Made by a program: the position numbers and the translations under genes. This document shows, one piece after another, positions 44,524-45,211 of a stretch of 64,000 nucleotides of DNA. The notes under the pieces were generated by a model, which worked only from the letters and a program-made list of their open reading frames with translations, did no database searches and had not been told where the DNA came from. The DNA lies in contig NZ_JADCKQ010000007.1 of the NCBI RefSeq assembly GCF_016123485.1, positions 62,001 to 126,000 of the forward strand, given 5' to 3'. How positions within the stretch are numbered: the first letter of the stretch is position 1; each line of letters opens with the position of its first letter. This stretch comes from Halocynthiibacter styelae (GTDB taxonomy: Bacteria; Pseudomonadota; Alphaproteobacteria; Rhodobacterales; Rhodobacteraceae).

Positions 44524-44541
44524 CGGACGTTGAGATATCGA

Positions 44542-44570
44542 AACCCGCCTCAAAACAGGCGGGTTTTTTG
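44542..44570 (+). terminator. Terminator of the DUF4167 gene
   Basis: AACCCGCCT 44542-44550 / AGGCGGGTT 44557-44565, loop CAAAAC, followed by TTTTGTTAT. Eighteen bases past the stop. Confidence 0.9.
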
Positions 44571-44693
44571 TTATATTGCGATTTTTGTCAACTTCAGGCC
44601 GGGACCGCGTTTACCCTAAATGCCTTGCACACTCTGTTGTTTGAACGCAGGGGCAGCAAGTCGTAAAAAGCATAACCGTAGAGTTGATGTAAA

Positions 44694-44716
44694 GTGATGG
44701 CCCTCGAAGCCATCAC
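44694..44716 (-). terminator. Hairpin after the small repeat protein gene
   Basis: GTGATGGC 44694-44701 / GCCATCAC 44709-44716, loop CCTCGAA; on the - strand followed by TTTACATC. Nine bases beyond the stop of the 44726-45052 gene. The poor T-run makes it a weak terminator. Confidence 0.5.
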
Positions 44717-44725
44717 AATAAACGA

Positions 44726-45052
44726 TCACTCTTCGATCTGAACCTCACCTTGCAACGGTAGGGCGATGGCTCTTGAACTCACTCCGATCTTAGCTGAGTT
44801 AGCTCCGACAGTGGCCGTGTCGATGCCGACAGCAACTGAGCTAACCCCGACTGTGGCTGAACCATCGGGGCCATCTATCATGACTGCTCCAGTAGGAGGT
44901 GCGATAGAGCATGGGTAGTTACCAGAACATACAACAACATCCCAACAATGCCCTTGTGCGTTGCATTCACTCAGAGCACTGGCCGTTGTGACTGATGCGA
45001 AAGTTGCTGTAACAGCAAAAAATGCTGACGTGATTTGATGTCTAATACTCAT
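44726..45052 (-). CDS. Small secreted protein with YadA-head-like heptad repeats
   Basis: 108 residues from ATG 45052 (an in-frame GTG at 45061 is possible). Signal peptide about 1-26. The mature N terminus has four cysteines at 30, 36, 42 and 48, exactly six apart. Residues 65-99 are five tandem seven-residue units (SATVGVS, SVAVGID, TATVGAN, SAKIGVS, SRAIALP) of pattern x-A-x-V/I-G-x-x, like the head repeats of YadA-type trimeric adhesins that form a left-handed beta roll. No stalk or membrane anchor is present, so it is not a full autotransporter. Base composition is more AT rich than neighbours. Role unknown; a surface or self-assembling protein is inferred. Confidence 0.65.
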   Translation of the reverse strand: MSIRHQITSAFFAVTATFASVTTASALSECNAQGHCWDVVVCSGNYPCSIAPPTGAVMIDGPDGSATVGVSSVAVGIDTATVGANSAKIGVSSRAIALPLQGEVQIEE

Positions 45053-45211
45053 TGTATTCACTCGCTTTTTGTCGTTTCCACAGGTTAATCCTGTGACAAG
45101 ACCACTCTTGCTGATGAATATGCGTAGCTCAATAACAGCCCCATGATATTGGATAACATTCCTCTGAATCGTGAGCTGAGAACATAGAATATTGTTTGGA
45201 CCAGGTTACCC

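Follow-up and report, generated by a model that had tools for sequence, protein, structure and literature searches.

A small, probably exported orphan protein with a regular cysteine block and YadA-head-like heptads encoded in an intergenic insert

Gene neighbourhood and layout of the open reading frame

The open reading frame (ORF) is located at 44726-45052 on the minus strand of the window, the whole 64,000-nucleotide stretch of DNA that was analysed, and encodes 108 amino acids followed by a stop codon. These coordinates had been given correctly in a preliminary account of the locus (hereafter the sequence-only reading), which left the strand unstated; the plus-strand translation of the same interval is full of stops. 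Based on its translation and its homologue, the product is a small, probably Sec-exported orphan protein. The N-terminal segment (residues 1-26; 44975-45052, minus strand) has a short charged start followed by a hydrophobic stretch that runs to TTASA, where the cleavage site was placed by eye, and by eye it has the appearance of a typical Sec signal peptide. Judged from this N-terminus the product is likely exported, in agreement with the small secreted protein proposed in the sequence-only reading. The signal-like segment is followed by four cysteines, a Pro/Gly linker, five heptads (residues 65-99) and nine final residues.

The genes upstream on the ORF strand are rsmA, pdxA and a surA-like gene, and the frames preceding the latter read as lptD and two lptF/G permeases, assigned from sequence and gene order and not from profiles. 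The opposite flank holds prfA, prmC and a DUF4167 gene, which point towards the ORF, and the insert that carries it separates two housekeeping blocks (prfA-prmC-DUF4167 and rsmA-pdxA-surA), as had been stated earlier. The ORF starts 159 nt past rsmA, and a consensus scan showed no convincing promoter for it; it may be transcribed as the final member of this outer-membrane assembly run or from its own promoter.

RNA folding placed a terminator-like hairpin with a short U tail just past the stop codon (approximately 44687-44717, minus strand; z = -4.7 for 44680-44735). Its stem is kept in the corresponding locus of Thalassobius sp. I31.1, where the one change falls in the loop. A second hairpin of six to seven pairs (CACAGG-ATTAA-CCTGTG; approximately 45070-45090, minus strand) stands ~20 nt before the start codon and is possibly a leader element; the significance of its fold is weak (z = -1.8), and in the alignment with I31.1 two pairs change to G-U with the pairing kept. 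The search of Rfam returned nothing beyond one match with E = 0.45 at the terminator of the DUF4167 gene.

Distribution of the insert and of the ORF

Comparison of gap lengths and composition delimited an expanded intergenic region of 688 bp between rsmA and the DUF4167 gene (44524-45211). In a third congener the two genes are ~100 bp apart with no such ORF between them, and among 15 other genera with a readable distance, 13 have a gap of 3-92 bp. Larger gaps in two other genomes were found to hold unrelated frames and no homologues of the ORF. The local GC content of the insert (44570-45200) is 47.1% as against 56.0%, the lowest value among all 631-bp segments sampled in the window, which confirms the AT richness of the surrounding DNA described before. 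No second copy of the insert was present in the genome, and among the sampled relatives it occurred only in Thalassobius sp. I31.1.

A single homologue was found, in Thalassobius sp. I31.1, which was isolated from a shell lesion of a lobster (PMC6368651); this homologue is 96% identical, stands in the same place and has an intact frame. From its identity and position the genome of the window was assigned to the same genus. The search for neighbours in other genomes thus gave the same locus in I31.1 and an empty site in the congener, and no frame decay was seen in the sole relative with the gene. The recent acquisition considered possible in the sequence-only reading is supported by this empty site. 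On the simplest reading of the sequences, ~0.6 kb would have been gained by the ancestor that the two species share; loss in the third is possible.

No further homologue was obtained from genomes, GTDB genome contigs, viral contigs, phages or plasmids, the overlapping genome samples comprising 296 and then 395 members of the family, 385 of the class and 349 of the phylum. Weak family-level matches (E ~1e-3 to 1e-2) were read singly and proved to be antisense frames, signal-peptide look-alikes or unrelated proteins. In G329, another genome of the same family as the ORF host, two nearly identical small exported proteins of ~110 aa each, of unknown family, are encoded in tandem (contig 3, 348577-349243). 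This pair was rejected as homologous, only the signal peptide being common to it and the ORF product. Pfam, NCBIfam, PHROGs and PDB searches gave no family match for the ORF, the only PDB alignment being a chance one to colicin A (E = 0.95), and the earlier statement that no described family combines these features held when membership in a known family was looked for.

Sequence constraint and coding status

The ORF differs from its I31.1 counterpart at 7 of 327 positions (2.1%) and the non-coding flanks at 22 of 361 (6.1%; Fisher p = 0.012 in a post hoc comparison). It is thus about three times less diverged than the flanks, and indels are present in the flanks and absent from the ORF. All four amino-acid changes (I/V, A/T, L/I and V/L) are conservative, and the cysteines and the glycines, serines and threonines of the heptads are unchanged. 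In a neutral simulation, changes as few and as mild without a stop arose in 1.6-3.4% of runs. Upstream of the start codon the reading frame continues, but in I31.1 this extension is broken.

The dN/dS of 0.44 derives from only seven changes (N:S 4:3) and on its own is not distinguishable from 1, and the dS of the ORF is unusually low (0.038, compared with 0.12-0.23 in neighbouring genes). Given this low dS and the weak dN/dS, the constraint may include RNA or a shared recent history and not the protein alone. The lower divergence of the ORF, the conservative nature of its changes and the hairpin past the stop codon together support a functional, young, lineage-restricted secreted protein, and the ORF is very likely a real protein-coding gene.

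The cysteine block and the heptad repeats

The cysteine block (C-x5-C-x5-C-x5-C, residues 30-48; 44909-44965, minus strand) has its cysteines at residues 30, 36, 42 and 48, in exactly six-residue steps, and all four are identical in the I31.1 homologue. Equal spacing of four cysteines is expected by chance with a probability of 6e-4 in the 82-aa mature part, or of 0.8% if clustering is taken as given, and the regularity emphasized in the sequence-only reading was upheld by these spacing statistics. Beetle antifreeze protein has a cysteine every six residues in a beta-helix. The C-x5-C step is common to both proteins, whereas the ORF product has only three such steps and lacks the TxT motif, and the likeness is an analogy of spacing only.

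The five heptads (SATVGVS/SVAVGID/TATVGAN/SAKIGVS/SRAIALP; residues 65-99; 44756-44860, minus strand) are rich in G, A, S and V. Their period-7 score was reached in 0 of 2000 shuffles, and none of the periods from 4 to 15 scored as well in 500 shuffles; the 35-residue block is therefore as regular as had been claimed. No tandem repeat with a 21-bp unit is visible in the DNA of this region.

The canonical YadA head repeat is GxNSVAIGAxSxAx (PMC9543794), and both this motif and the inner-strand SVAIG signature of YadA heads have been described (PMC9543794, PMC2483945). Of the 20 positions that the motif specifies over 28 residues, 12 are matched by residues 69-96 (shuffle p ~1e-5); a six-frame scan of the window gave 8 of 20 for the second-best 28-mer. 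When the heptad block itself was shuffled, 12 of 20 was never reached in 100000 trials, and the match is therefore specific in position and not merely compositional. Glycine is present at position 8 of the motif in both coils (G76 and G90), and Lys-88 occupies a position where the motif has alanine. At the profile level, Pfam PF05658 (YadA_head) gave no match in the fragment at E <= 10 and none in this genome or two congeners at E <= 1. The claim that the heptads read like trimeric-adhesin head repeats accordingly is borne out by the motif and not by the profile. Neither of two AlphaFold2 monomer runs yielded a confident structure (pLDDT 39 and 41), which, with an input of two sequences only, says little either way. 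From the repeat pattern, folding of the heptads as a beta-roll appears to have a little under an even chance.

The seven/fourteen-residue G-x-x-S-x-A-x-G periodicity is common to the ORF and YadA-type heads (PF05658), which form a left-handed parallel beta-roll. YadA-type adhesins differ from the ORF product in that the latter has a four-cysteine block preceding its heptads, lacks a profile match and has repeats amounting to ~2.5 coils, far below the 8 coils of YadA and the 11 of BadA (PMC2483945). The C-terminal YadA_anchor beta-barrel of type Vc systems is absent, the ORF ending nine residues past the heptads with no Pfam match, and no neck or coiled-coil stalk is present in the 108 aa, which agrees with the earlier description of heptads without stalk or anchor. 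With ~2.5 coils and with anchor, neck and stalk absent, the ORF product is not a trimeric autotransporter adhesin. A literature search for anchorless YadA-head proteins gave no match; if the ORF is real, we know of no smaller array of YadA-type head repeats standing without the rest of an adhesin.

Interpretation and alternative readings

We tentatively propose that the ORF is a genuine gene of recent, lineage-specific origin and encodes a small exported protein, which would mature as follows. The Sec signal would be removed, and, either extracellularly or in the oxidising periplasm, the four cysteines would pair into two disulfides, yielding a compact N-terminal knot. The five heptads, as their motif suggests, may adopt a YadA-head-type fold, a left-handed beta-roll of only ~2.5 coils, which on the same grounds would probably require self-association for stability. 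The product would be a small oligomeric envelope or matrix binding protein and not an anchored adhesin, and transcription would proceed by read-through from the upstream run ending surA-pdxA-rsmA or from an own promoter.

A bolder reading is a free-standing, newly born 'mini-head', in which a YadA-type roll of ~2.5 coils without stalk or anchor is stabilised by a disulfide-locked Cys-hexad cap, and which arose in one Thalassobius lineage in the intergenic insert behind surA-pdxA-rsmA; we consider it rather unlikely. The combination of motifs is rare. If real, the locus offers a clear before-and-after case, two sister species with the gene and a third with an empty site, of a small secreted repeat protein arising in an intergenic region. 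Bacteria have many orphan secreted proteins, and for most purposes the ORF product is one of these.

It is also possible, and to be held with similar reserve, that the ORF encodes a real small secreted, disulfide-bonded protein in which the heptads are not a YadA-type roll but a segment rich in small residues, self-associating or membrane-active in the manner of a glycine zipper, as in a bacteriocin-like or envelope-active peptide. The richness in G, A, S and V, the silence of Pfam YadA_head and the absence of a fold predicted by AlphaFold2 fit such a protein, but the YadA repeat match is specific in position, the block shuffles never having reached 12 of 20 in 100000 trials. In its favour, the paper on the I31.1 genome mentions bacteriocin clusters, in general terms and not at this locus (PMC6368651); against it, no immunity or transporter gene adjoins the ORF.

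That the ORF is a functionless protogene, or an open frame arisen by chance in non-coding inserted DNA, is unlikely. Confinement to two sister species would be expected of such a frame, an ATG-initiated ORF of at least 108 aa occurred in 2.6% of insert shuffles, and N:S of 4:3 alone does not reject neutrality. However, a signal-like N-terminus, regular cysteines and heptads are jointly very unlikely by chance, the ORF is less diverged than its flanks with all changes conservative, and a hairpin follows the stop codon.

Descent from a trimeric autotransporter adhesin gene, as a free-standing remnant that lost its stalk and anchor, would explain the YadA-type motif and the foreign composition of the insert, and is nevertheless very unlikely: the ORF has its own stop with a hairpin directly after it, no stalk, neck or anchor sequence occurs as far as the DUF4167 gene, YadA_head has no match elsewhere in the genome or in two congeners, no full-length adhesin with a matching head was found in the related genomes searched, and the frame is kept in two species. 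As far as we know, a four-cysteine block is not part of the heads of trimeric autotransporter adhesins.

A bufferin/captophorin-type copper RiPP precursor of the BufA2 family (NF050166), which like the ORF product is small and exported with cysteines after the signal peptide and which gave the best NCBIfam match (E = 0.023, 14.9 bits over signal peptide and cysteine block), is highly improbable and was rejected, as score, motifs and partner genes all fail: 14.9 bits is far under the 60-bit cut-off, the EGKCG and Cys-Lys motifs described in PMC12668002 are lacking, and neither an MNIO gene (DUF692/PF05114) nor another partner adjoins the ORF. The two MNIO genes of the genome are on contig C12, where a DUF2282-like precursor already stands beside the gene, and at C37:8392-9168, ~98 kb from the ORF at C37:106729.

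Both MNIO loci have features of their own. On contig C12 (~26.2-27.6 kb), the MNIO (PF05114) gene has a small DUF2282-like exported cysteine protein (EKCYGVSLAGANDC...) just upstream and forms a standard bufferin-type pair. On contig C37, outside the window (~8.4-9.9 kb), the second MNIO gene adjoins a cysteine-rich frame of ~262 aa (with NHC, NSCAGQGYC and NNCANQGGC), which is possibly an unusual large MNIO substrate.
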